Shown here piece by piece: positions 7,258 to 59,943 of a stretch of DNA of 64,000 bases; positions within the stretch are counted from its first letter, which is position 1; each line of letters opens with the position of its first letter. The notes under the pieces are model-generated. The model saw only the letters and a program-made list of their open reading frames with translations. It ran no database searches and had not been told where the DNA came from. This stretch comes from Halalkalicoccus sp. CG83. GTDB taxonomy: Archaea > Halobacteriota > Halobacteria > Halobacteriales > Halalkalicoccaceae. The DNA is taken from assembly GCF_037081715.1 (NCBI RefSeq), contig NZ_JAZDDH010000002.1:62001-126000 (forward strand), given 5' to 3'. The translations under genes and the position numbers were made by a program.

Positions 7258-8556
7258 CTACCGCGTTTCGACGTCGGTCCCGACCGAGACGGCCGATCCG
7301 AGCTCCGGTGCGCTCGCATCGAAGCCGACACCACGGAGATCCGTCGCGAACCGCTCACAGCGGTCTCCGTGATTGACGAGCAGCTTCGCGTCCCGGTACG
7401 GTTCGAGGAACTCCAGCAATCCCCTCCGATCCGCGTGCGCCGAGAAGTCGTAGGACTCGATCCGCGCGCTCACCGGCATGACCCGTCCGTCGATCTCGGC
7501 CCGTCCGGTCTCGAGCAGTTCGCGTCCGGGCGTCCCCGCCACCTGATAGCCGGTGAACGCCAGCGTGTTCGTCGGGTTCCGACGGATCTCGGGGACGTAC
7601 GTCATCGCCGGTCCGCCGGTGAGCATCCCGCTCGTGGTGACGATCGCCGCCCGCTGGCCGGCGATCCGCCGACGTTGGCCGTCGCGACCGGTAACGAACC
7701 GCGCGTGGGAGGTCGCCCGCCGAAGCGCCTCGGCGTCGCGGACGAACTCCGGGTACGTCCGGAGCATCTCGGTCACCCCCTTGCCCATCCCGTCGACGTA
7801 GCATGGAAGGTCGTGGGTCTCACAGATCAGCAGCATCTCCTGGGTACGCCCGATCGCGAACGCCGGCACCACCACGGTGCCGCCCTCGTGAAGCGTCGTC
7901 TCGACGCTGCGGGCGAAGCGTTCCTCCACGGCCGCCCGGTCGTCGTGTTGCACGTCGGCGTACGTACTCTCACAGATCACGACGTCGGCGTCGGGACGGG
8001 CGGTCGTTCCCGGGACTAATCGTTGAGAATCGGTGTGGAAGTCACCGGTGTAGAGTAGCCGGACGTCGCCGTCGTCCACCAGGACGTGCGCGCTGCCGGG
8101 GATGTGGCCGGCGTCGAACAGCGTCACCTCGTAGCCGGCGGCCTCGAACGTCTCGCGGTAGCCATGGGTCTCCGAGACCTGCGACAGCCGCGCGACGTCG
8201 GTCTCGGTGAACGGACACCGGTAGGAGCCGCCGTGGAGCTTCAGCGTGTCACGCGCGAGCGTTCTGGTGAGCTCTCTCGTCGGTGGCGTCCAGTGTACCG
8301 TCGGCCGGGAGTCGCCAGAGAGCAGGGCGGGCACCGCGCCGGCGTGATCGAGGTGGCCGTGCGAGACGACGACCGCCTCCGGCTCCGGGTTTCCGAGAGG
8401 GAGGCGCGGCGGGTTGTCGGTGCTCATCCCGAAGTCGATGAGGAGCGACCCGTCGCCGTCGGACCGCGTCCGATCGCCGGCGGGGCCTCGTCCCTCGCCC
8501 ACGAGGAGCGCGCTGCGACCGATCTCGCCGGCACCGCCGAGGAACTCGATCTCCAT
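7258..8556 (-). CDS. Metallo-beta-lactamase/beta-CASP ribonuclease-like protein
   Basis: Predicted zinc-dependent RNA nuclease of the beta-CASP branch (CPSF73/RNase J-like) without KH domains. Seen: MEIEFLGGAGEIGRSA start typical of the family, HxHxDH zinc motif in SHGHLDHAGAVPALL, GHIPGSAHV and LLYTGDFH motifs, beta-CASP region, and C-terminal histidine motifs in ESYDFSAHADRRGLLEF and LVNHGD. Length about 432 aa from the Met at 8556. An upstream ATG at 8634 adds 26 residues of low-complexity sequence and cannot be excluded, because an AT-rich box lies 30-40 bp before it and this clade often uses leaderless starts. Confidence 0.88.
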   Translation of the reverse strand: MEIEFLGGAGEIGRSALLVGEGRGPAGDRTRSDGDGSLLIDFGMSTDNPPRLPLGNPEPEAVVVSHGHLDHAGAVPALLSGDSRPTVHWTPPTRELTRTLARDTLKLHGGSYRCPFTETDVARLSQVSETHGYRETFEAAGYEVTLFDAGHIPGSAHVLVDDGDVRLLYTGDFHTDSQRLVPGTTARPDADVVICESTYADVQHDDRAAVEERFARSVETTLHEGGTVVVPAFAIGRTQEMLLICETHDLPCYVDGMGKGVTEMLRTYPEFVRDAEALRRATSHARFVTGRDGQRRRIAGQRAAIVTTSGMLTGGPAMTYVPEIRRNPTNTLAFTGYQVAGTPGRELLETGRAEIDGRVMPVSARIESYDFSAHADRRGLLEFLEPYRDAKLLVNHGDRCERFATDLRGVGFDASAPELGSAVSVGTDVETR

Positions 8557-47035: not shown

Positions 47036-47108
47036 GGGCGCGTAGCTCAGTGGACAGAGTACTTGGTTCCGGACCAAGATGCCGCGGGTTCAAATCCCGT
47101 CGCGCCCG
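47036..47108 (+). tRNA. tRNA-Arg (anticodon CCG)
   Basis: A 73-nt cloverleaf: acceptor GGGCGCG pairing with CGCGCCC, D-arm GCTC...GAGT, anticodon stem CTTGG/CCAAG with loop TTCCGGA (CCG), and T-arm GCGGG-TTCAAAT-CCCGT. Intronless. Its last part is the left attachment site of the integrated element, whose end rebuilds the 3' end of the gene. Confidence 0.95.
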
Positions 47109-47110
47109 CT
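47077..47110 (+). other. attL within tRNA-Arg
   Basis: 34 bp beginning AGATGCCGCGGGTT and ending CCCGTCGCGCCCGCT, covering the variable loop, T-arm and acceptor 3' strand. The same 34 bases recur at 58463-58565, split into 14 + 20 bp by an insertion. Confidence 0.85.
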
Positions 47111-47282
47111 CTGCTGTATGCCGTCTCGGATTGACCCGACGGCGTCCAGGTGTTTATAAATCCGCTGCTCATTTTGGCACCCGATTTGAACACGCGATGA
47201 AGCGCGCCTCTTATCCTTCAGGTGGTTCAATAGATTTGTTATCGAGCATCCGGTTTAACTGTTTGCTACTGTTTAACACTCG

Positions 47283-47809
47283 AAATGGAACCCACTGAAC
47301 ACAAGGACTACAGCGGTTGGGAGTTCGCAAAGTCCGCGGGCGGATTACCGAAGTCAAGACCAACAGGCGGAACCCGGTTCCGAGGATGCTACCCGGGTCG
47401 AACCCGATGAAACACGTTCGCAGCACTACTTGAGTAGACACGCGCGCTACCGGAGAACCGTTGCTGACCGAACGACGGCAGACGCATTGAGACGGTGGCT
47501 GAAAGAGCGAGAAAACTACGGGATGTACCGTGAAACGGATTCATTGTGGTTAACGAGGGAGGGAAACCCCTACCAATTACAACCCCTCCGATACCTTCTC
47601 AGCCGTCTCTGCGATATTGCAGACATCCCAACGGAGAACCGGAAGATGTCGTGGTATGCAATCCGCCACTCCTTGGAACATACATGACCGCAGAACGGGA
47701 TTCGAAAGCAGCACGGAGCCAACTACGACACAAGTCACCCCAGACAACGATGCGATACGACCAAACACCTGTAGAGGACAGGAAAGAAGCTCTGGAACGG
47801 ATAAGATAA
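47283..47809 (+). pseudogene. Broken tyrosine recombinase (C-terminal part)
   Basis: Remnant of a second integrase. One frame reads YLSRHARYRRTVADRTTADA, then ALRRWLKERENYGMYRETDSLWL, and MSWYAIRHSLEHT, containing an R-H-x-x-x-type box. A frameshift near 47680 moves to another frame giving YMTAERDSKAARSQLRHKSPQTTMRYDQT, with the catalytic-tyrosine segment. The N-terminal domain is absent or unrecognisable. It suggests an earlier element or an older version of this one used the same site. Confidence 0.75.
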
Positions 47810-47813
47810 ATAG

Positions 47814-48419
47814 TCATACATCGCTATTTTGTCCGTTATTTGGCTCAACCTCAGTAGAGCTCTGTCGGTTGGGCGTCAATCCTGCTGCTTCAAGGGCGGC
47901 ATTCCATGACCCGAACCGAGTATGATATGTCGTTGGACTGAATTTGCCGTGGTCACGCATGTCGGTCATTTTGGGTGTCGATTCAAGCTCATCAGCAAGC
48001 CGTTGAAGCTCCGCTAGTAATTCATCAGCTGCGAGTTCGGCAGGCTGTTGGCTGTTGACTGACAATCCGGCCGCCATGATTGCGTTGTTCCATGAGTCAA
48101 ACCGTTCCTGATAGACCTTCGCGCTGAACCGTCCATGGTCGGCCATATCAGTCTTCGTCGGCGTTGTCCCGAGTTCATCCGCGAGTTGCTGGAGTTCTTC
48201 GGCTAACGCATCGGCGGGGATTTTAGCTGGTCCGCGTTTGTTTGGCTCAAAGCCAGCCGCGGCAAGCGCATCGGTCCACGACCCGAATCGCTTTTGATAT
48301 GTCTTTGCGGTAAATGCGCCATGGTCACGCATATCTTGCACCTTCGGCGTAGTTCCGAGTTTGTGAGCAAGTTGCTGGAGTTCCCTTAACAATTCATCGT
48401 CCGGAATACGTTCAGGCAT
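47814..48419 (-). CDS. Protein of three homing-endonuclease-associated (HNH) repeats
   Basis: A 201-aa protein built almost wholly of three ~62-residue repeats (about 4-58, 66-120, 128-182), each following ELQQLAxELGTTPxxxDMxDHGxFSxxxYxxRFxSWxxAxxAAG. This matches the repeat that accompanies HNH homing endonucleases and probably binds DNA. No nuclease domain is attached, so it may regulate or target DNA for another protein. Confidence 0.82.
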   Translation of the reverse strand: MPERIPDDELLRELQQLAHKLGTTPKVQDMRDHGAFTAKTYQKRFGSWTDALAAAGFEPNKRGPAKIPADALAEELQQLADELGTTPTKTDMADHGRFSAKVYQERFDSWNNAIMAAGLSVNSQQPAELAADELLAELQRLADELESTPKMTDMRDHGKFSPTTYHTRFGSWNAALEAAGLTPNRQSSTEVEPNNGQNSDV

Positions 48420-48649
48420 GCTTCATCACTCCATATGTCTGGCTTCATTATTTCGTTTGTTCCCTTGCCTGTCTCTGATACTCACTATATGGTACCAGTT
48501 ATTTTCAGATAAGAATGAGCAATCCTTTGAAGATGGTTTTATCGTAGCTAAGTTATAGCAATTTGGTTCGAGCAACTGCAAGGAGTGTGTTTAAGTATCC
48601 TGCGTCTGTCGTTGTATATGTGGTAGCGGATACCACCGAGGTAAAAACA

Positions 48650-49066
48650 ATGAGTGACAAAAACCAACCCGATGAGGCGCGCCGAACGTTCATAAAAGGA
48701 GCTGCAGCGACTGGTGTAGCGGCGACTGGTCTCACTGCATTTAGCGGTAGTGCTGTCGGACAGCAGCAGCGAATTCGAAGCCTGAACATAAATCTGACGG
48801 AGCAAGATGGATTGCTGAACGTAGTCGTCCAGAATGTGAACGCTCTGAATAATGTCAATGTTGAAGACATCGTCGTCACCGTTATTGGGGGAGACGTCCT
48901 CAGTAACATTGAGGTTGACATCCGGAACATTGACGTTAACGTTGAGATTATAGACGACGTTAACGTGGAGAATGTACTGAATAACAATGTTGTTCAGGTC
49001 GCGGTTGTTGCACTTAGCGATACTGGTGATATCGTCGCACAAGGAAGCGATGCCCTCAACCTCTAA
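48650..49066 (+). CDS. Tat-exported Asn/Val-rich repetitive protein
   Basis: A 138-aa protein with a twin-Arg signal (EARRTFIKGAAATGVAATGLTAFSGSAVGQ). The mature part alternates hydrophobic and polar residues (NINLTEQDGLLNVVVQNVNA, LNNVNVEDIVVTVIGGDVLS, NIEVDIRNIDVNVEIIDDVN), a pattern that predicts stacked beta-strands. Related short repetitive Tat proteins occur in haloarchaea; function unknown. It may be a surface or secreted fibre-like protein carried as cargo. Its low-GC codon use matches the element. Confidence 0.7.
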   Translation: MSDKNQPDEARRTFIKGAAATGVAATGLTAFSGSAVGQQQRIRSLNINLTEQDGLLNVVVQNVNALNNVNVEDIVVTVIGGDVLSNIEVDIRNIDVNVEIIDDVNVENVLNNNVVQVAVVALSDTGDIVAQGSDALNL

Positions 49067-49154
49067 GTTGACGAATAACAACGACAACGATGAGTAGTTG
49101 ACGTTATTTAATTTTTATTGGAGGGGGACTCCACCGCAGTCCACGTGAAACCCG

Positions 49155-49565
49155 TCAGTTACGACTGCGTCGCTCGGTTGACTCCCGGGTATCGATTCTA
49201 AGCCCGTTGTGGTACGACATCCGCATTCGGGCGTCCCAACCCTTATGCGAGATTGTCGAATCAAGAAGGCTAATGTCTAATCCACTCCATGATGGAAAGG
49301 TAGCAACACTCTCTCCATAGTCAGTAAAGGTCACTCGATACATGCGGCGAGTCGGCGTTTCAGCGAGTTGGGAGATATTCGTTACAGTAGGGTCAGCGGC
49401 CAGTCCCTCCTCAAAGGCTGCTAAATCACTGTTCTCTGCCCAAAATAGGTAGGTAATACCATCACTGGTTTGGTATTGTTCTTCATGACTGATGATTGTC
49501 TCGGGGGCGTGAGCGAGGGCGTCTTGAAGGATAGGCGAGTCCACTCGGAACTCAACGACTAACAT
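49155..49565 (-). pseudogene. Truncated Bat-like regulator (N-terminal sensor part only)
   Basis: 136 aa that match the N-terminal region of bacterio-opsin-activator (Bat)-type HTH regulators: LVVEFRVDSPILQDALAHAP, LFWAENSDLAAFEEGLAADPTVTNISQLAETPTRRMYRV. The C-terminal HTH_10 DNA-binding domain is missing; the protein ends in an Arg/Ser-rich tail. It is either a truncated remnant or a stand-alone sensor domain that could interfere with full-length regulators. Confidence 0.65.
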
Positions 49566-50110
49566 ACGACTACTATGGCAAGGAGGGAGAAAGAAGTAAC
49601 AGGTGAACCACTGGAATCGAATGAGACTCCGGGAGATTGCGTTTCCTCAATGTTGTCTTAAACACCATGATGAACCATCCACTTTTTCTTTGGTAGTGGA
49701 CCGATTTGTTCACCATGGTGGCAGCGACAGTCTCGCTATGCTACCAAGTATCAGGGAGAACCCAGGTACACGCCTGTCGGTTTGCTCTGAACTGAAAACC
49801 GGGGAAAGAGCTCATCCATCCTCCCGGTTTTTTGGGAACATTCCACTGCTCCCATCTTCCCACCATCCACCATGATGGACACCACTGGGATACTAATACT
49901 GCCCTGGTATCCACTTCGTGTATTGGTCTCAGAGGAACTTCAATTAGCAGCATGGTAAATCATGGAGGTATGATGAATTGGAAGCGATGTAGGGACCCGG
50001 TATCGACCTCGGGCAGCATCTCCAAGAGAAGTAGGACCGCATAGTGAACGACCTCCAAGATGGGTCTCAGTTAGCCCGCCATCTCGATGACGCAATCACG
50101 TCCATCCTCT
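49566..50110. other. Gene-poor stretch with a terminator-like hairpin
   Basis: 545 bp without a supportable gene. It has an inverted repeat AAAACCGGG...CCCGGTTTT at 49795-49831 followed by extra T residues, which could end transcription from the left, and several CACCATGATGG-like words. Short open frames here have no recognisable content. Confidence 0.45.
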
Positions 50111-50254
50111 TTATCGTTCTTCTTTCCAGAAGTGCCCACAGTCTTCACATTGGTAATTGTAAACATCCTGATAATCGGTAGACCGAACCGCGTCCTTCTT
50201 GGTTTTGATATTGGTTGAACCACATTCGTCGCAAGCCGGACTATTCGCTTGCAT
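50111..50254 (-). CDS. Small zinc-ribbon protein
   Basis: A 47-aa protein: MQANSPACDECGSTNIKTKK, then DAVRSTDYQDVYNYQCEDCGHFWKEER. The two CxxCG knuckles about 28 residues apart form a classic zinc ribbon, as in small viral and plasmid DNA/RNA-binding proteins. Below usual length cut-offs. Function unknown. Confidence 0.7.
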   Translation of the reverse strand: MQANSPACDECGSTNIKTKKDAVRSTDYQDVYNYQCEDCGHFWKEER

Positions 50255-50868
50255 CACATGATGCGTTAGGTCTTGCCTGTTAAATTCTTTAGGTAATGAA
50301 CGAATATGCGCTGTCGAACCCCGGCGGTTTACTGACGTAGGCGACTGGCGGTAGTCCGCGGTCTCTTTCTCCGGCGTTTGATGTCCATGCTACTACTTCT
50401 CCATGCCCATCCCCTGGTAGCCACTCCTTGGGTATTCCCTGGTTCCTGTCTTCCCCGATGGTTATGGCCACCCCCCAGTGGTTGTGGGTTGACCTGTTGG
50501 CTTCATGTCCTCCTGTAGGTCCTGAGTGCCGTTCTCCGAGGAGTTACTTTCTTCCATGTCTCTTTCCCAAAGAACAAATCCGCTCTCTCGGCTTGTTGTG
50601 GCCTCACCCCCTGTCCTGAATAGGGTATATTTCGAGCACTAAAACTTCTGACTGGTATATCAGGACTGGTCCGAAACTGTCCGTGTGAAGTAATTTCATC
50701 CAGCTTTTTGCTCGGGGTCAACCTCATCCCGAAATTCCGCTGGGAAATCTGCCATTCAGCTTAATGCAACGTCCCACGAATAAAACCAGCTATTGGCAAA
50801 TACCGCTAATTACTGGAGCAAAATCCCCCTCCCAATAAATATAAATACTCATACAGGTGAGGAATATT
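50255..50868. other. Gene-poor stretch and promoter of the HEPN-like gene
   Basis: About 610 bp. Minus-strand frames of 60 and 74 codons exist without recognisable motifs. Near the right end, AATAAATATAAATACTC (50834-50850) is a good TATA region about 25-30 bp before the next gene, and GGTGAG (50857) a Shine-Dalgarno. Confidence 0.45.
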
Positions 50869-51741
50869 ATGGTTGAGAAAACTTGGACCCGGATTTCAGA
50901 TAAATATGATGAATATATCACTCGATACCCGGACGAAGGACTACTTGGAGGAAAATTACCTCTCCGAGATTCTATTCTTTCAGGGAAAGGTAACTATTAT
51001 GAAGCAATCGAAGGCAAGTTAGAAAGAGAGTGCTTGATTGGGTATGATTCAGAGACCTCCCCAATAGAAAATCTTCCTTCAGAAATCCGTATGAAGCTCC
51101 CAATAAAACTGACTCAGACTCTTCAAGTTCAGGTGACATCAGACAATCGACATTATTGGAAGACGACCTACGATACAGTGGATAACGCCCATAACTCGCA
51201 TGGTTTCTTGAGGAACGGCCAGTGGTATGCTATCAGGAATTTATTCCATCTTTCACTGTGCCATTATGAGACGATAAATCGGCCTAGCCACCATAGACAA
51301 TCTGACTATGTTCAGAAGGTGTTTAGGAATACAAGTACTATAGCCGCATACGTATCATACCCCATACTTGAAGGATACCTAAAATATCGTTGTAGACATG
51401 TGATTGAAAGAGATGGGACTGTGACACAGTCGAATGAAATTAAGAAAGTAAGACGAGGGGGATATTATGAACAGGGCAACAGATGCAGTAGTCTACTCGA
51501 CATTCTTGTATACTTCGAGGAAAATATCGCAAATTCAAACTTAGAAGAGAACCTCGAACAGATGAGAGAAAAAATAGCCAACTTTGGGAATGTTGGAACA
51601 GATGAGGCATATGGACTCATCTACGGATGGCGAAATTCTAATTTACATGGTGAAGCGGAATCAGATGTGCAGTATGGAATCGTACTGAATTTGCTATGTC
51701 TATTGATTTGGGAAGAATTAATTCGAAATGATATGGTATAG
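50869..51741 (+). CDS. HEPN-like protein, candidate RNase of the element
   Basis: A 290-aa protein I do not recognise over its full length. The C-terminal ~95 residues are helical and contain GWRNSNLHGEAE, an R-x4-H motif followed by a hydrophobic helix (IVLNLLCLLIWEEL), the pattern of HEPN-domain RNases (ApeA-like). The N-terminal ~190 residues have beta-rich and mixed content. AT-rich codon use, its own TATA box and Shine-Dalgarno indicate independent expression. A defence or toxin role would fit HEPN proteins on mobile elements but is inference. Confidence 0.6.
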   Translation: MVEKTWTRISDKYDEYITRYPDEGLLGGKLPLRDSILSGKGNYYEAIEGKLERECLIGYDSETSPIENLPSEIRMKLPIKLTQTLQVQVTSDNRHYWKTTYDTVDNAHNSHGFLRNGQWYAIRNLFHLSLCHYETINRPSHHRQSDYVQKVFRNTSTIAAYVSYPILEGYLKYRCRHVIERDGTVTQSNEIKKVRRGGYYEQGNRCSSLLDILVYFEENIANSNLEENLEQMREKIANFGNVGTDEAYGLIYGWRNSNLHGEAESDVQYGIVLNLLCLLIWEELIRNDMV

Positions 51742-51758
51742 CTGAGAATTCTCAACTC

Positions 51759-52174
51759 CTAATTCTGGTCCGAAGTCTTCAGCCGTTTCCGCCGGTTAGC
51801 CTGCTTTACTCCTCTCCGGACTGCTTGCTCAAGTTCAACATCGTCACCATCCGCGTAGTTATTGATGGTCATGTCGTACTGGGTCCGTTGGTCGTAAGTA
51901 CCCCCTCCGGTTTTGATGGGTTTCGTATCCTCTCTCGGAGTGGGAATCCAGGTTTCGGTCCGCTCACCTATCCTTGAGTAGCGGGAGACATGGTCCCAAC
52001 GGGGTCATTCAGGGCCTCTCCGATTCTCCAACCTTTCTCCGGGTCAACCTTGATATCCTCATAGCCTTCGAACCGTTCAATCTCATAGTCGGCCTCCATT
52101 TTCTCCATCTCGAAGAAGGGAAACCGGTTCAATTCAATCTTGTTGACGGCCTTGATGGTTGCATTCACCATCCA
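51759..52174 (-). pseudogene. Frameshifted fragment of a virus/plasmid gene
   Basis: Minus strand: a first frame gives MVNATIKAVNKIELNRFPFF, then EMEKMEADYEIERFEGYEDI and KVDPEKGWRIGEALNDPVG. A shift near 51990 leads to WDHVSRYSRIGERTETWIPT and GGGTYDQRTQYDMTINNYAD, ending KRLKTSDQN-stop at 51759. Both pieces have good coding composition. The 5' end is missing next to the nuclease-like gene. The product family is not recognised; it resembles a virion structural protein in general character only. Confidence 0.55.
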
Positions 52175-52215
52175 GTTGAGGTCACCACCAAGTTCTATCC
52201 TGTTAGGATATATTG

Positions 52216-52884
52216 CTACGACTCATAGTTTTTCAGAATTATCATCAATTTGTTGTAAAGGTGTGTATCAATTCTTGACAGATTTTTTATACTGTTCGGG
52301 GATGGGGGAAGAGACATTCCCGGATTTAACGAGCGCCCAGATGCGGAAACTAATACCATACTCCTTGTTGGTGCTTTCGGATGGCGTAGTGTTAATTGAA
52401 CCTCAACTCCGTTATGTAGTGCCCCTTCTGAATCTTGAGAGTGAGCAGCTGGTAGCCACGAAGATTCCCCGCAGTCAGTTTGAATACCATGATTATACAT
52501 AGGGGCATTCTTCAGAAGATGAGTAAAATTATATTCAGATGGAATGAATGCCAGTTCGAAAAATAACATTACTTCATCAAATTCGAATTCAGGCGTTGGT
52601 GGGCCCCGTTCATTAGATGAATAGAAGTATCGGCGCATCTTATTGAATTGCCGTATTATCGCATTAGCACCTGTAACTGACCGTACTGCGTGTTCAGATT
52701 TGACTTCAATAAGATGAGCTTCTATCAGAGCTTCCCCAGGTTGATAGAATACAACATATAAATCAGGGACTCCCCTTCTACCCGAATTTCGATAACTTGC
52801 TTCAGGTTCAAGAATATCTACTACATCCTTGGCCTCGTAATGCCGGATTAGACCATTTGTTAAATCATCTTCACGAAACCCCAT
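52216..52884 (-). CDS. PD-(D/E)XK nuclease-like protein
   Basis: A 222-aa protein. The N-terminal ~90 residues show a PD-(D/E)XK core: GVPDLYVVFY with Asp41, then HLIEVKSE with Glu60-x-Lys62, and a following helix with Gln79 (IIRQFNKMRRYFY). An N-terminal helix (DDLTNGLIRHYEAKDVVDIL) fits the fold. The C-terminal half is low in recognisable motifs. It may be a resolvase, restriction-type or defence nuclease of the element. Confidence 0.65.
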   Translation of the reverse strand: MGFREDDLTNGLIRHYEAKDVVDILEPEASYRNSGRRGVPDLYVVFYQPGEALIEAHLIEVKSEHAVRSVTGANAIIRQFNKMRRYFYSSNERGPPTPEFEFDEVMLFFELAFIPSEYNFTHLLKNAPMYNHGIQTDCGESSWLPAAHSQDSEGALHNGVEVQLTLRHPKAPTRSMVLVSASGRSLNPGMSLPPSPNSIKNLSRIDTHLYNKLMIILKNYES

Positions 52885-53045
52885 GATAGTATACCATTTA
52901 CACCACTGTTACTTATCCACATCGGCAATAGAATATCTGAACTCTACCGTCACAGCACCCTTATTAGTAGATAATACATCAGTACAGATGTCGGTTTATA
53001 GTGTCATTTGGGAAATGAAGGACAGTAATCATGTCGTAAGGTCGC

Positions 53046-53174
53046 TTAATCAATCTCTTCCCTGGCATTCGTAATTACGCTCTCAGCAGTCATTATCACG
53101 GCTCCAAGGGCAAACCCCAGAACCACATGCTTGAAGAATAGCAGTACATCTACGAGTAGTAGTAGCAGGTCCAT
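53046..53174 (-). CDS. Small single-helix membrane protein
   Basis: A 42-aa protein: MDLLLLLVDVLLFFKHVVLG, then FALGAVIMTAESVITNAREEID. One long hydrophobic helix followed by a charged tail, typical of small membrane proteins of haloarchaeal viruses and plasmids. Function unknown. Support is coding-like composition and clean ends only. Confidence 0.45.
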   Translation of the reverse strand: MDLLLLLVDVLLFFKHVVLGFALGAVIMTAESVITNAREEID

Positions 53175-53237
53175 ATACTCTGTCAGTCGCTTTTTACCCA
53201 ACCGAAGGTTCTTCCATCCTCTCCGTTGCTAACCACC

Positions 53238-53549
53238 TTAGCGGGCACATGAGGCCGTGTCGATGAAGCCACCTACTAACCTGGATTGGGAGGCATCAAT
53301 CCACTCTGCATCCTCTTCTTGATTCATGCCAGCTTCCAGGTACAGAACCTCCAGGACCTCCTTATCCCGATAGGCCATTTCATCCTCTAGGTGTTTCGGA
53401 GGTTTCCGGTCGTCCAGGTAGTGAACTCCGAGGTACGCCTTGATAGCTCCCCAATGGGTGTCGTACTTCTCTGCTATCTCCGCGATTGACATTTCATTCA
53501 CAATGTGGTCACGGAGGAGTGGTTGCTTTTGTTTGTACGGTTCGGTCAT
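53238..53549 (-). CDS. Small HTH-like DNA-binding protein
   Basis: A 103-aa protein. Residues ~12-40 (LLRDHIVNEMSIAEIAEKYDTHWGAIKAYLG) form a helix-turn-helix of the resolvase/sigma-like type. The rest is acidic and helical. It begins one base after the stop codon of the helicase-like gene, so they are cotranscribed and it may regulate the unit. Confidence 0.65.
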   Translation of the reverse strand: MTEPYKQKQPLLRDHIVNEMSIAEIAEKYDTHWGAIKAYLGVHYLDDRKPPKHLEDEMAYRDKEVLEVLYLEAGMNQEEDAEWIDASQSRLVGGFIDTASCAR

Positions 53550-53550
53550 T

Positions 53551-55590
53551 TCAGAAGCTCTTCCCCTTCTGGTTTGTCGCCTCTTCTTCTTCCTCAACAT
53601 CCACGATTCTATGCCGGAAGTCGTCTCCCCGGAAGTTCTCGATTTCTCGCTCGGCCTTTCCAATGTCGATGAAAATACTCCAACCGATGTCCCTCTCCTT
53701 CTTCTTCGGTTCTCCATCGTACAGACCGATGTAGGGATACTTCTCGGGTCCATCCCTCATCCGACCGTAGTAATCCTCCACCGACCCCAGGATGTCCTCG
53801 CTCAGGTCGTGCTCCCGCGCGTACTTCCGGATTTTGTCCAGGGACTTGGAGAGGTTAATCCGTAACTCGTTCTCCGAGGCCACCTTGTAATGGACTTCGG
53901 GCTTCAGCATGTTGTCCGAAGCCGCTCTACTGGCGATGTCAAAGAGGGTATCAACGTGTCGAGCACGGTTCTCCCCGCCGTTAGCCCCGGTTACGGAGTA
54001 AAGCATGGCCTTCTCAACGTCCTCATCCGTGAAGGTCAACTCGGCATCGAGGGCATCAGCGAATTTTTGGTAGAGCGTACATCCGAAGTGGATTGTTTGC
54101 ATTCCCTGGATGTCCATTTCATCGGGGAGTTGGATGTCATTCTCCTGGATAAGCTCCCAGGTCTTTTCCCCCGATTCCTCCCACCGTTGCCGGAGGAAAC
54201 CCTTGTCGTGATTGAGGAGGAACTTGAGCCAGGCCACCACATGCTGCGAGAGGTCATAGCCGCTGTAGTGAGCGACGTTACCATTCCCTCGGTGAGAAGT
54301 ACCGGTCAACTCCGAGAAGGCTCTGTTCGTATCTGAACCCGTCTCAGTGGAACTTGACTTGAAGGCAACTGCAATCTGTCGCCTCTCCTCTGCCGCTCCT
54401 GAAATGGACTCCTCACCACTAACTACGACCGGGGCCTCAAGCTCGTAGGAGTCGTTTGACCCGTCCTTATTCCCGCTCATGATGAGGGACGGTCGGGTAG
54501 TTTTTCGGAGCTTGTCGTGGAAGTTATTGACCTTGTAATCCTGCATGTCGCTCGGCTTGTACTCATCGAACCAAATGGGAATGGAGTTGGTTGAGGAGAG
54601 AGCCACCTTCTCGTTGAAATCCCCGTCCTTGATGGTCAAGGGACGCTTCCCCATCCCGAACATATCCCAGAGTACACCGAGAGTAGCGGTTTTCCCCGCC
54701 CCGGTATCTCCCGTTACGGATAGCAGATTGAATTCTCCTTCCCAATCGAGGATGTATGGCTTCACGGAGGAGGCATAGAAGAAGCCAATAACGGGAAGTA
54801 ACCGCTCCGTGTCTCGGGTTCGGGGAAGTAGCTCAATAATTTCGGCTACCTTCTCCCGGTCGAATTTATCAGGGCAACTCCATGCCCGCTCCGTGGCAAT
54901 ATTCCGGGCATCATAGAGGATTTCCTCCTCCTCGCTCCACCCGTCTGCCGTAAGGTTCCGGTTGGGAGTGACCCAAACCCCATCATTCAGACCGAGGTGA
55001 TGGGTTCCTTTCTTCTCGACCCGGTCTTGCTTGGTGATGTACTGCCTCAGGTCTGCAAGATTTCCGTCGCTTCCCTTCCAAACGGTGGTCTCTCCAACGC
55101 AAACCTCCCGCTTGAACTTCCGCTTATCGTGGAAAACTCCGGTGTCAACGGTCACCTCGAAAGGACTCTCATCCATGCGCGGATGGACGACGAAATTCAT
55201 CTTCTTCTCGTCGTTGGGAGTCGTTACAATGGACTTGTACTCCAGCGTGAAGTTGGACCACTCTTCCCAGTGCTCTCCCTTATCACGGCCGTAGCCCCCG
55301 TTGCTCTCGGAGACATTCAGGTTAGGAGTGCTATCCGGCAGGGAATTCTCCCTTATTTCTTTGACTCGCTTTTGTCGTTCTTCATACTTTTCCTTCTGCT
55401 CTTCGGTCAAATCAGAATTAGTCATATTTTCACTTTCGTTCTCCTCTTCCTGCTCTTCTTCCTCCTTCTTCCGAAGGTCAGATTTCTTGATAGTCTCTCC
55501 CTCGTTAAACCGGGGGTTGTTCAAATCCAGAAACCCCGAAGAATCAAAAGGAGAGTCCTTGTGCTCGCACTCAATCTCGTCAAAGTCCAT
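53551..55590 (-). CDS. P-loop ATPase, helicase/primase-associated type
   Basis: A 679-aa protein. Residues ~35-85 are a Lys/Glu-rich coiled coil. The middle carries an ATPase core with Walker A GDTGAGKT (294-301) and Walker B IPIWFDE (337-343), preceded by ERLLPVIGFFYASSVKPYILDWEGEFNLLSVTG, as in DUF927/superfamily-3-like helicases of archaeal plasmids and viruses. It is probably the replication helicase or initiator of the element. Upstream lies a 49-aa gene, then the long non-coding region with phased TGGAACA repeats. Confidence 0.75.
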   Translation of the reverse strand: MDFDEIECEHKDSPFDSSGFLDLNNPRFNEGETIKKSDLRKKEEEEQEEENESENMTNSDLTEEQKEKYEERQKRVKEIRENSLPDSTPNLNVSESNGGYGRDKGEHWEEWSNFTLEYKSIVTTPNDEKKMNFVVHPRMDESPFEVTVDTGVFHDKRKFKREVCVGETTVWKGSDGNLADLRQYITKQDRVEKKGTHHLGLNDGVWVTPNRNLTADGWSEEEEILYDARNIATERAWSCPDKFDREKVAEIIELLPRTRDTERLLPVIGFFYASSVKPYILDWEGEFNLLSVTGDTGAGKTATLGVLWDMFGMGKRPLTIKDGDFNEKVALSSTNSIPIWFDEYKPSDMQDYKVNNFHDKLRKTTRPSLIMSGNKDGSNDSYELEAPVVVSGEESISGAAEERRQIAVAFKSSSTETGSDTNRAFSELTGTSHRGNGNVAHYSGYDLSQHVVAWLKFLLNHDKGFLRQRWEESGEKTWELIQENDIQLPDEMDIQGMQTIHFGCTLYQKFADALDAELTFTDEDVEKAMLYSVTGANGGENRARHVDTLFDIASRAASDNMLKPEVHYKVASENELRINLSKSLDKIRKYAREHDLSEDILGSVEDYYGRMRDGPEKYPYIGLYDGEPKKKERDIGWSIFIDIGKAEREIENFRGDDFRHRIVDVEEEEEATNQKGKSF

Positions 55591-55740
55591 TCTCGAAGTC
55601 GTTATGTCGCAGTAAATCCAATATTGGCATGTTGACGGGTGGAGCCGTCAGACATGCAGCCTCTACCTCTGCTTTCCGAAACCGGAACAGTGGCTACTCC
55701 GAACCACGTATTCTGTCGGTCTCGATAGTGAAATATTCAG

Positions 55741-55890
55741 TCAGTCATTAATGAATTCCTCATCCAGTTTTTCCCGAACGAACTCGGAGAGGTTGAAGTA
55801 ACCGTCACCTCTCACCGGGTCCTTGTGTCGTTCCTTCAATGAAATGGACGTTATCCACGTTTCTTCTTCTTTCTGAAACTTAGTTGACAT
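55741..55890 (-). CDS. Small protein, possible ribbon-helix-helix type
   Basis: A 49-aa protein: MSTKFQKEEETWITSISLKE, then RHKDPVRGDGYFNLSEFVREKLDEEFIND. The end (YFNLSEFVREKLDEEF) resembles the helix of Arc/CopG-like DNA-binding proteins. Upstream on the minus strand a TATAGAATTTTT box lies about 40 bp before the ATG. It is the first gene of the helicase unit and a possible copy-number or transcription regulator. Confidence 0.5.
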   Translation of the reverse strand: MSTKFQKEEETWITSISLKERHKDPVRGDGYFNLSEFVREKLDEEFIND

Positions 55891-57312
55891 TGTTGAAAAT
55901 CGTGTCCTACCGCTTATCGGTCAAAAATTCTATACCTCAGTAGCTCCAATCTCGGATTGGCTTCTAACCACCCGAAATTGCGGTCGTTATTTTTGGTCAC
56001 GGTCCTGCAAGGCCCGCTGTTGGGTTCGAGTAGTATCGAACTGGATTTCTTGCATCGAACAGGAGGATTCTGATTGCCTTCGGGGAACCACCCCCAGGCA
56101 TGAACCTCGGTGGTTCAAATCTCCTCACCCCGGAAGTGCTACTTCCGTTCCGTCAGTGGGCGAGTTACCTGGGCCAGCTAACTCCTACCCACTCCTCAGT
56201 TACCACTATTTTGGGGTCGGTTGAGGAGACACAATGCCTCAACCAACGTGGTAGCGACTGTAGGAGGGCCGAATCCGGAGTTACCCTGGAGGGCACCGGA
56301 CACGACTTGTGGCTTTCATCGGGGCTTTCGTTCAGGTCATTTCCCACCTAATAATAAGGGATACTCAGTAATAAATGCTATGTGACAATAATTACCACAG
56401 TTTTGGGAGATAGAAAGCTTCTCTTCTCGTTTTGAGAGTTCTCTTTTCGGGATAAGAAAATTCCAGAATTTAAGTTTGGGAATGATGGGGTAGATTGAAG
56501 GAAAGGAGTGCGTGCCAGAATTACAGTTGGCACGGGTGTAAAACCTGGCTCCTTTATATACTCCTGGGAATCCCTCACCCTGTTTCATGAAAAACTCCCG
56601 AGGATGTTCCAGCATGTTCCGGCAATGTTCCACCCCCTGGAACACCAAAAATCGCGAGAAGGGGAGGAGGTGAGAAGGAAATGTTCCACTGTTCCACCTA
56701 ATTCTCTCTACAGTGTGTGTAACGGTGAGGAAGGTACTGGAATTACTATCACCACCTCCAACCGATTTACACACGTTGTTCAGAGAATTTGGTGGAACAT
56801 TTAGAAGAGTAATTACTATAACGGTAGTAGGAGGCTGTTACCTACGGAATACTGGAGATAAAAATGTTCCATCCCCCATGGAACATCGGTGGAACACGGT
56901 GGAACAGGTAGAACATTTTCCCGTGGAGCCCGGAAATTGACTCCTAAAAGGAGGTAGTAGTCTCCGGGTAGCCTACGGTATTTCCTGGAGAAATCGCATT
57001 GAAGCCCTACCTACTACTGGCTTTGAGCTCGTGAGAATGGGAAGGAGTGGAGTATAGTGAGAGTATTCACTTCGTAGTCTACAAGGACATACTCGTTTGG
57101 AGTGAATCCTGGTACTGAAAATACCCGTGGAGGGCTTGTCTTCCTGGAAAGGAGATATACCTGCGTATTCGGGCTTCCTAAGCCCTGAAACCCCGGAATC
57201 TGAGTATCTAACTTTCTCTGGGATTCTACGATGGAGACGATGGATGCCCCTCGTATCTCTTGGGGACCACTGAGAACGGTAATGCGGGGAATTGACGACG
57301 GGTAGGGTGGGT
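55891..57312. other. Long non-coding region, candidate replication/control region of the element
   Basis: 1.4 kb between the divergent-facing ends of the helicase unit and the integrase, with no convincing gene. It holds GAACCACC...GGTGGTTC hairpin arms (about 56084-56115), CGTGCCA...TGGCACG (56511-56534), the TGGAACA cluster, AT-rich runs (56340-56480), and a CTCCT-AAA-AGGAG-like palindrome at 56941-56954. Confidence 0.6.
56605..56915. repeat. Iteron-like cluster of TGGAACA/TGTTCCA
   Basis: Ten exact copies (56605, 56626, 56638, 56682, 56690, 56793, 56865, 56879, 56890, 56900) and two with one mismatch (56615, 56909). Left group steps are 10, 11 and 12 bp and right group steps 11, 10 and 9 bp, so sites face one side of the helix. 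The left group is mostly TGTTCCA, the right TGGAACA, giving an overall inverted layout. Confidence 0.8.
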
Positions 57313-58338
57313 TTAGATGTTGTCGAGATATGTCCGCCGCTGTTCTACTTTTTCCTCCTCCGTCCGTTGGTCATAGTGCTTTTCCAACACGTCTGGTCCG
57401 ACGTTCATCCGGTCGCTGACAACCTTCTCGGGTACCTCTTCGGTAAGATGATGGGTGATGGAGCCCCGTCGAATAGCATGAGGACTCACGACAGATGGAC
57501 AGTCGTAGTATGCCTTCTTGTGGTCATCGCGGGCTACGCATGTCTCCATGTCTCTGTTGTGGGGACATTCCCCTGAAATCACACATGGGCGCGTCCATCG
57601 GTAGACCCGGTCTCGAATAGTACTTTTTGTGGCTCGTCCCTGTGAAGTAGTAATAAGCGGACATCTTCCATACTCATCAACTGTATCCGGTCGATTGTGG
57701 CTCATCCAGTCCTCTATGACTTGACAGAGCTCTGTATTCAGAGCTATCAATCGCTCTCCCTTCGCTTTGTTTTTCAACGGTGTCCCTCGGTCTGGGCGAT
57801 GGTGGGTCTGAAGCCGTTGGTTTTCCAAGTCATAGTCGTCAACGTCGAGTCCATAGATGGCCCCGGTTCGCATTCCGGTATGCCAGAGCAAGAGAACCGT
57901 CACATGGTCAAATGACGCGTAGTGGAAGCGAGCAAGATAGTTGAGGATTCTCTCTGCTCGGTCGGACTCTAACATCACTTCTCGTTGGTTATCTCCGTCA
58001 TCCAACGTCGGAGAGACCACCTTGTCTGAGAGGTCGGGTTGAACAGCGTCGATGGCTTCACACCAGCGAATGAATACTCGGACTGTATCCATCTGTGTCT
58101 TTACCGTGACTTTGTTGAGGTCTCCATCATCTCGCCGCCAGAGCTTATAGCGGTGCATGTCACGGCCACTGAGACCGTTCAGGTTGTCGATACCCTCCTC
58201 GTCGCACCATCGAATGAGATGGTTCAGACGGTATCTATGGGCCTGCAGACTCGCTTTTGTGAGGTCAGTACGCCTGTCTTGGAGGTAGAGCTCAAGAGCT
58301 TCCTCCGGGGTCATGGGTTCGAGGTTGGTTTCGTCCAT
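57313..58338 (-). CDS. int: Tyrosine recombinase (integrase) of the element
   Basis: A 341-aa phage/Xer-type integrase, complete. N-terminal SAM-like domain (residues ~10-95: EALELYLQDRRTDLTKASLQAHRYRLNHLIRWC). Catalytic domain with Arg157 (WHTGMRTGAIYGLDVDD), a Lys around 191, His287-x2-Arg290 (SPHAIRRGSITHHL) and Tyr322 (LEKHYDQR). A cysteine-bearing insert (CVISGECPHNRDMETC) precedes the HxxR box. It lies 125 bp from the distal att copy and catalyses insertion into tRNA-Arg. Confidence 0.93.
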   Translation of the reverse strand: MDETNLEPMTPEEALELYLQDRRTDLTKASLQAHRYRLNHLIRWCDEEGIDNLNGLSGRDMHRYKLWRRDDGDLNKVTVKTQMDTVRVFIRWCEAIDAVQPDLSDKVVSPTLDDGDNQREVMLESDRAERILNYLARFHYASFDHVTVLLLWHTGMRTGAIYGLDVDDYDLENQRLQTHHRPDRGTPLKNKAKGERLIALNTELCQVIEDWMSHNRPDTVDEYGRCPLITTSQGRATKSTIRDRVYRWTRPCVISGECPHNRDMETCVARDDHKKAYYDCPSVVSPHAIRRGSITHHLTEEVPEKVVSDRMNVGPDVLEKHYDQRTEEEKVEQRRTYLDNI

Positions 58339-58462
58339 CGTTATCGCCTCGAACCACCCGAAGGATGGTCGATAGCCGGCCTGGCCCGTCCAGGATATCC
58401 GGTAGCTGGTTCCGAAGTCGTCGGAAGCCCGCGCAGCGCCTCAAGGGCGCGAGCAGGACCCG

Positions 58463-58565
58463 AGATGCCGCGGGTTCCCCTCGAACGAAGTTCGAGGGGG
58501 CACGTCGAAGGCTCTGCAACTTTGTTGCAGGTTCTTCGACTCTGTCAAATCCCGTCGCGCCCGCT
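58463..58565. other. attR (original tRNA-Arg 3' end), interrupted
   Basis: 14 bp (58463-58476, AGATGCCGCGGGTT) and 20 bp (58546-58565, CAAATCCCGTCGCGCCCGCT) identical to attL, separated by 69 bp of hairpin DNA. The break falls in the T-loop. Since the tRNA gene is rebuilt at the left end, this copy is free to be disrupted. Confidence 0.85.
58477..58545. repeat. 69-bp double-hairpin insertion within attR
   Basis: Hairpin 1 (58477-58499): CCCCTCGAAC-GAA-GTTCGAGGGG, a 10-bp perfect stem. Hairpin 2 (58504-58540): nested stems GTCGAAG/CTTCGAC and CTGCAAC/GTTGCAG around TTT with a small GCT/GTT internal loop. Perfect pairing throughout implies a recent insertion or selection on structure. Confidence 0.85.
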
Positions 58566-58576
58566 CGCTCACTTCG

Positions 58577-58681
58577 CTCGCGTGCGCCCCTGACTGCCGC
58601 TCGTTACGTCACCGGCGGTTTCGCCGCCGATTTCCGGCGGGACCTTCGGTCCCGCACGGCTCGCGGCAGTCCCGTCGTGCC
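58577..58681. repeat. 105-bp hairpin-rich repeat, copy A
   Basis: About 92% identical to 59741-59845 by eye. Contains GGCGGT-TTC-GCCGCC, GCGGGACC-TTC-GGTCCCGC and the outer arms ACTGCCG...CGGCAGT. It begins 11 bp after attR. Confidence 0.8.
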
Positions 58682-58814
58682 TATATTTGAAACACATCTA
58701 ACCGCCATCCAACGCCGGTGTTGCTTACTAGATGAGACGTATGCGAGATACGGAGGTTGCACGTCTATCGAACGGCCCCCTTGACGAAGAATAGTGTTTG
58801 AGCGCAACTGCCGT

Positions 58815-59467: not shown

Positions 59468-59943
59468 TACCGAGACACACTCGTCGCTCACAGCGACAAA
59501 CACTACCTTCGATTTTTCAGACGGTTACACGTTCCAGCCGAGGCTATCTCTACCCTCCAGAAACACCGACATCAAGAACGTTGTGTGACCGATACGCGCC
59601 CCGTATCTCGCAGGACGCTACGAAATCCTCTGATGACTACCGTATATCTCCGATCTCGGATCCGTCAAACTCGGCCGTTTCACGCCGCAAAGGGCGATTC
59701 GTTCGCCCTGTGAACGAGCGCCCTGCGCCCGTTGGTCTCACTCGCGTACGCCCCTGACTGCCGCTCGTTACGTCACCGGCGGTGAAGCCGCCGGTTTCCG
59801 GCGGGACCTTCGGTCCCGCACGACTCGCGACAGTCCCGTCGTACCCGTCGTTCTACATGGCGCTTCCCCGTTCACCGATTCGCTTCCGTAACGGAGACGA
59901 TACGCCGAAAAGAGACCCTGTGTCTACGGATCCTCGACCGCGA
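59468..59943. other. Intergenic region with hairpin repeats
   Basis: 476 bp without a gene. A palindrome AGGGCGA-TTCGT-TCGCCCT lies at 59691-59709 and copy B of the 105-bp repeat at 59741-59845. The rest is unremarkable. Confidence 0.6.
59741..59845. repeat. 105-bp hairpin-rich repeat, copy B
   Basis: Aligned with copy A without gaps. The inner hairpin loop is GAA instead of TTC (GGCGGT-GAA-GCCGCC), the GCGGGACC-TTC-GGTCCCGC hairpin is unchanged, and outer-arm differences are G to A changes. Confidence 0.8.

Follow-up and report, generated by a model that had tools for sequence, protein, structure and literature searches.

An integrated element at tRNA-Arg(CCG)

The DNA analysed here, hereafter the window, is a 64-kb stretch of Halalkalicoccus sp. 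CG83 (GCF_037081715.1, NZ_JAZDDH010000002.1, positions 62,001-126,000, forward strand). It holds an integrated element that extends from a tRNA-Arg(CCG) gene, the single intact tRNA gene that ARAGORN reports in the 64 kb, to position 58566, a span of low GC (about 0.43-0.55 in the element body, against about 0.6-0.7 in most of the flanks) with an integrase gene near its distal end. The 3' part of the tRNA gene (47077-47111) is repeated at that end. The features of the locus are the following:

47036-47109, + strand: intact tRNA-Arg(CCG), the proximal end of the element (ARAGORN; Rfam RF00005, 68.2 bits)
47110-58477, no strand: body of the integrated element, about 11.4 kb (composition; distal flank like the empty sites of relatives)
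57313-58338, - strand: tyrosine recombinase (integrase) of the IntSNJ2 type, 341 aa (Pfam PF00589, E 5.8e-12; match to SNJ2)
58405-58475, + strand: integrase-side (P) arm, with homology to that of G345 (L117), an element in another family (blastn, 79% over 71 nt)
58436-58450, + strand: hairpin 0 (GCGCCTCAAGGGCGC), inside the arm and absent from G345 (sequence, inspection)
58463-58477, + strand: left half of the tRNA copy (variable loop, 5' T-stem and TTC), 15 nt, AGATGCCGCGGGTTC (sequence; host-tracking test)
58477-58499, + strand: hairpin 1, a perfect 10-bp stem with a GAA loop (fold, hairpin scan)
58504-58540, + strand: hairpin 2, a 7-bp stem, a symmetric 3x3 mismatch (GCT/GTT), a second 7-bp stem and a TTT loop (homologous to att hairpins of G236, G320 and G275)
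58547-58566, + strand: right half of the tRNA copy (3' part of the T-loop, 3' T-stem, acceptor strand and 2-3 nt beyond), 20 nt, AAATCCCGTCGCGCCCGCTC (sequence; empty sites)
58567-58700, + strand: host flank originally behind the tRNA gene, with haloarchaeal hairpin repeats (comparison with empty sites)

In relatives without an element at tRNA-Arg(CCG) (G005 and others), a comparable hairpin-rich flank lies directly behind the tRNA, and a repeat similar to it follows the distal copy in the window. Since the empty sites carry this comparable flank, the right half and the sequence downstream of it are taken as host-derived and the boundary as a normal attR. Farther along, 58574-58681 and 59738-59845 are 108-nt hairpin repeats, 92% identical, whose copies differ in one hairpin loop, TTTC against TGAA, as though the hairpin had been flipped. 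Within the element, 47814-48419 (-) encodes a protein of three HNH-associated repeats (PF18780, E 8.6e-71), and the 679-aa protein of 53551-55590 (-), weakly similar to a family of phage DNA primases (phrog_1139, E 9e-4), is possibly the replication protein. The 294-aa protein of 50857-51741 (+) matches no family and has a C-terminal RNSNLHGE motif reminiscent of HEPN-type proteins.

An integrase of the IntSNJ2 type

The window integrase is 44.5% identical over 99% of its length to that of the SNJ2 virus, and this full-length similarity, together with the catalytic domain, places it in the same family; a protein scan of genome contigs returned only two distant loci. With IntSNJ2-type systems (Natrinema virus SNJ2 and other betapleolipoviruses) the element shares a related tyrosine recombinase, a putative core at the 3' end of a tRNA and a haloarchaeal setting. 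It differs from them as follows. First, the SNJ2 int operon contains two small accessory genes ('recombination accessory proteins'), whereas no ORF of at least 90 aa lies directly upstream of the window int on its strand, where the att copy occupies the place. Second, the attP of Halfgib1, and apparently that of SNJ2 too, is located 3' of int, but the window att lies 5' of int. Third, the SNJ2 att is a short 14-nt core (PMC8371274), whereas the window att carries in addition a tRNA left half and two hairpins. The 20-nt right half, the likely crossover region, is compatible with the short tRNA-3'-end core of this type.

A distal tRNA copy split by two hairpins

The sequences AGATGCCGCGGGTTC and AAATCCCGTCGCGCCCGCTC are contiguous in the tRNA (47077-47111) but separated in the distal copy by 69 extra nucleotides, the ends of which are ambiguous by one C; beyond that C there is no target duplication. 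The original prediction had described a 34-bp att split into 14 and 20 bp by a 69-bp perfect double hairpin that folds completely. The split and the length of the insert stand, the left piece being 15 nt within the ambiguity of the one C. Hairpin 1 is indeed perfect, but hairpin 2 contains the 3x3 mismatch, and the fold is incomplete, since a linker of 4 nt and, on the right, some 5 terminal nt stay unpaired. Folded as DNA, the insert reaches -23.2 kcal/mol, against -9.15 +/- 2.25 for shuffled sequences (z -6.2, 0/200). Hairpin 1 is the longest perfect short-loop hairpin in the window; one 10-bp hairpin in 64 kb is unremarkable, as it is present in 7 of 20 shuffled windows, but the present pair within the split copy is not. 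Neither the own genome nor the family yielded a second copy of the 69-nt insert.

Recurrence beside related integrases

When 392 genomes of the order were searched, the three best outside matches all fell on hairpin 2 (93-96% over 27 nt): 96% in G236 and G320 and 93% in G275, which represent two other haloarchaeal genera. In each case the match abuts a tRNA right half and lies upstream of an integrase (about 55% identity), at a distance of about 220-250 nt. The window arm recurs in a third other genus (79% over 71 nt), its match to the G345 arm having an E value of 4e-14 in a blastn comparison within a 13-sequence set. An assembly artefact, which the original prediction had allowed for, is unlikely, as hairpin 2 and the adjoining arm recur at att sites of other genomes.

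The regions upstream of about 75 related integrases were then surveyed, and att copies fell by inspection into three classes: uninterrupted long copies (e.g., L009, L010, L014, L108, L131, L132 and L135), the short 3'-end core alone (the most frequent class) and split copies. Ten split sites with an identified host tRNA, including the window, were verified as tRNA left half, hairpins and tRNA right half. They involve five tRNAs: Arg(CCG) in the window; Arg(CCG) or Arg(TCG) in G004; Arg(TCG) in G236 (with its near-twin G320), G228, G345 and G465; Arg(CCT) in G275 and G295; Tyr in G031; and Phe in G214. Unrelated hairpins fill the same T-loop position at tRNA-Tyr and tRNA-Phe. In G202 the left half extends to the anticodon, and G452, G078 and G141 show related layouts with the host tRNA unconfirmed. 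A type-c hairpin gave matches in four genomes (G345, G202, G078 and G141), and in every one of them it neighbours an integrase of the IntSNJ2-like family.

Since hairpins of the same family recur between tRNA halves in other genera, those of the window are not a one-off insertion and are most simply part of an attachment arm; judged from these sequences, the split copy seems to belong to the machinery of insertion and not to be an isolated accident. The original prediction had asked whether every relative with this integrase has the same hairpins inside att. The answer is mixed: hairpins of that family do accompany related integrases from other genera, but in L009 and L010, whose integrases are the closest (64% identity), the copy is uninterrupted, and of the near-sister integrases L134 and L128 the former has a split and the latter an intact copy. 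Because these two differ in att state, the hairpins are not needed by every member.

Several other arrangements of tRNA fragments were encountered. In G031 (L109), two tandem split copies of the 3' half of tRNA-Tyr lie about 140 bp apart, with double hairpins in each T-loop. In G325, a chromosomal tRNA-Arg(CCG) gene (L211, 1422-1572; G325:C4, about 8266-8420) is split in the T-loop by a similar insert, its right half being decayed and an Orc1/Cdc6-like gene lying downstream; no intact tRNA-Arg(CCG) was found in the G325 genome, and such an insert can thus end up on the tRNA side. Non-coding cassettes of about 100-150 bp stand directly behind intact tRNAs or distal att copies at L204 and L206 (tRNA-Ile), L203 (tRNA-Phe), L208 (tRNA-Ala), L023, L026, L033, L087, L102 and L110. 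They are bounded by copies of the tRNA 3' end that match the neighbouring tRNA and contain an inverted T-arm half, a hairpin (often of GCGAAGC type) and the T-arm half again; possibly they are mini integrative cassettes. Finally, L002 (tRNA-Arg(TCT) of the own genome) and the empty tRNA-Arg(CCG) sites L042, L043 and L045 carry, behind the tRNA, tandem partial copies of its 3' end (CTCCCATCGTGCCCG or TCCCGTCGCGCCC), set about 80-130 bp apart and with hairpins between them.

Hairpin 2 pairing and the integrase tree

Among the window, G236, G275 and G465, hairpin 2 keeps 14 of 14 pairs, seven of them changed on both sides, a result reached in none of 500 shuffles; the test covers four sequences, the inner loop of G465 was shortened by hand, and the changes could reflect replacement rather than stepwise substitution. 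A hairpin-in-loop reading of hairpin 2 with a 3-nt duplication (GTT...GTT) was also considered and set aside, as it has few independent examples behind it.

On the integrase tree the split state is polyphyletic, and the window integrase groups (100/99) with integrases that have mostly intact copies. A clade of the window, G004, G345 and G465 is rejected (AU p 0.008), as is a single origin of P-arm-type split sites once G236, G320, G275 and G228 are added (AU p 0.0003), both groups having been named after the att sites had been seen. Hairpin types and arm sequences are spread over well-separated integrase clades. By this comparison, hairpin modules appear to stay with att sites and not with one integrase lineage, and att modules may have been exchanged between elements.

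The left half follows the host tRNA

The 15-nt tRNA segment left of the T-loop was compared across the ten sites by its best ungapped match within 200 nt of the right half. In all ten the left half matches the tRNA of its own host best or tied best. The trace of the comparison (diagonal sum) is 136, which none of 200,000 permutations reached (maximum 133); as the hosts are related and several of the tRNAs similar, these figures are not a formal probability. The contrast is clearest between G236 and G275, where the arm and hairpins are common to both but the left and right halves differ by target, tRNA-Arg(TCG) versus tRNA-Arg(CCT): the left half is AAGTTGTCACGGGT in one member of the pair and TCTGATCGCGGGT in the second, in agreement with the respective target tRNA.

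In G345, the left half has two mismatches to the host and fits the tRNA-Arg(CCG) of a relative (L046) better than the Arg(TCG) that is now the target, as if a switch of target from tRNA-Arg(CCG) had affected the right half alone. The match to G345 had suggested that the left half is merely an inherited part of the arm, an idea that was weakened when the host tRNAs were read, although G345 itself agrees with an older Arg(CCG) target. That the left half is an unselected relic does not agree with the host matching at ten of ten sites.

A probable modular attP arm with a likely crossover in the right half

The 69-nt double hairpin is probably, though far from assuredly, part of the element's own modular attP arm. 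In the circular element, attP would probably run from the arm through the tRNA left half, hairpin 1 and hairpin 2 to the tRNA right half. The IntSNJ2-type recombinase would exchange this right half with that of the host tRNA-Arg(CCG), and integration would rebuild an intact host tRNA at the far end; the arm, left half and hairpins would remain beside the integrase, joined to the displaced 3' end of the host tRNA. The crossover most likely falls in the right half, because the proximal tRNA has no insert and a comparable host flank follows the right half directly in empty sites of relatives, because the G004 element at the same tRNA shares 13 nt alone (CCCGTCGCGCCCG) and because the related SNJ2 integrase has a 14-nt att (PMC8371274). 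As such a crossover leaves the left half and the hairpins with the element, the split T-loop would be a product of the attP layout and not damage after integration, and to speak of a 34-bp att inactivated by an insert, as in the original prediction, is misleading.

Next to the crossover, the hairpins would most likely function as an element with structure or dyad symmetry, and they would most likely keep the second copy from serving as a usable tRNA or att site. The earlier idea of a structured signal for the recombinase is compatible with the pair conservation of hairpin 2, and that of a tiny mobile hairpin element survives in part, as a probable exchange of att modules across integrase clades rather than as a demonstrated transposon. 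Searches of plasmid and phage nucleotide records yielded no free circular attP with the split layout; viral contigs gave no match to three longer patterns and seven matches to a 17-mer of hairpin 2, by estimate about the chance number. Besides this negative result, several points speak against the attP model: the differing att states of the near sisters L128 and L134, the grouping of the window integrase with those of mostly intact att, the rejection of a single clade of P-arm-type split sites, and the fact that a crossover confined to the right half leaves the host matching of the left half, with its two mismatches in G345, without explanation. The left half might keep its match through sequence exchanged among co-resident elements, through conversion templated by the proximal tRNA while the hairpins are looped out, or through recombination with the hairpins extruded.

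Alternative explanations

A different origin, possible if rather doubtful, is that displaced copies free of selection acquire small hairpin elements in their T-arm palindrome once the larger element has integrated, a neutral process that would recur since hairpin loops would be preferred targets. The polyphyly of the split state, the near sisters L134 and L128, the unrelated hairpins in the same loop at tRNA-Tyr and tRNA-Phe, the missing target duplication and the likewise split chromosomal gene of G325 all agree with such insertion. A precedent exists in Haloquadratum SMR-A, elements of about 110 bp that insert without duplication into palindromes of IS605-type elements and PATEs; with SMR-A and with terminal-only PATEs the insert shares its very short length, palindromic make-up, lack of target duplication and haloarchaeal host, and like SMR-A it sits in a palindrome, that of the T-arm (PMC3119063). 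However, SMR-A elements end in inverted repeats and are present many times per genome in near-identical form, whereas the insert is single-copy in its own genome and its ends are not inverted repeats of each other; nor, for a single copy, can conserved ends be defined, PATEs and IS605-derived elements being recurrent, with a conserved terminal oligonucleotide and palindromes near the termini. Moreover, its closest relatives lie at integrase att sites, as do all best matches to hairpin types a and c, and the arm beyond the left half is also shared, for which a lone hairpin insertion does not account. Insertion after integration may be the right account of G031 and G214.

It also seems conceivable, though unlikely, that attP is a split tRNA mimic, in which the hairpins would extrude from the supercoiled circle, joining the tRNA halves into a match to the target; once extruded, they would mark attP and give direction. 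The CTX-phage attP and integron attC are folded recombination sites with hairpins between or within tyrosine-recombinase half-sites. The window att resembles them in having hairpins between or within two site halves; in those systems a folded strand recombines, whereas here a single-stranded or folded recombining form would be hypothetical. If true, the split mimic would represent an archaeal case of a hairpin-excluded tyrosine-recombinase site and would account for the match of the left half to the host tRNA across the insert that parts it from the right half.

Quite unlikely is a lock that blocks excision, as the original prediction had also proposed, in which the hairpins would make attR unusable or excision costly, since a crossover in the left half would leave them in the tRNA gene. 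The insert does lie in the T-loop, where the overlap region would be expected for a recombinase that used the T-stem dyad, and the only tRNA-Arg(CCG)-like gene found in G325 is split by such an insert. Yet the data all agree with a crossover in the right half, a part left uninterrupted by the hairpins, so that excision need not be blocked, and the recurrence of hairpin 2 in elements of other genera at different tRNAs argues against a dead end.

Archaeal tRNA introns can sit in the T-loop, but an intron, like an artefact of assembly, is barely credible here: the distal copy has no tRNA 5' half, its RNA folds into two hairpins with no bulge-helix-bulge evident on inspection at the junctions, and recurrence in other assemblies speaks against an artefact. 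In favour of an intron, introns carried by attP have been proposed earlier (Sugahara et al., 2012, as cited in PMC8371274).

Implications for haloarchaeal integrative elements

By definition, an archaeal att site is the stretch over which element and tRNA are identical without interruption, whereas here the tRNA copy is split by hairpins and both halves fit the current target. No description of this layout was found in the literature searched, a scope outside which many subscription papers lie. If the modular attP arm is functional, it shows how such integrases mark attP or change tRNA targets; if the hairpins are neutral, tiny haloarchaeal hairpin elements use displaced T-arms as landing sites. 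In both cases, a simple search for direct repeats will overlook where elements of this kind end.
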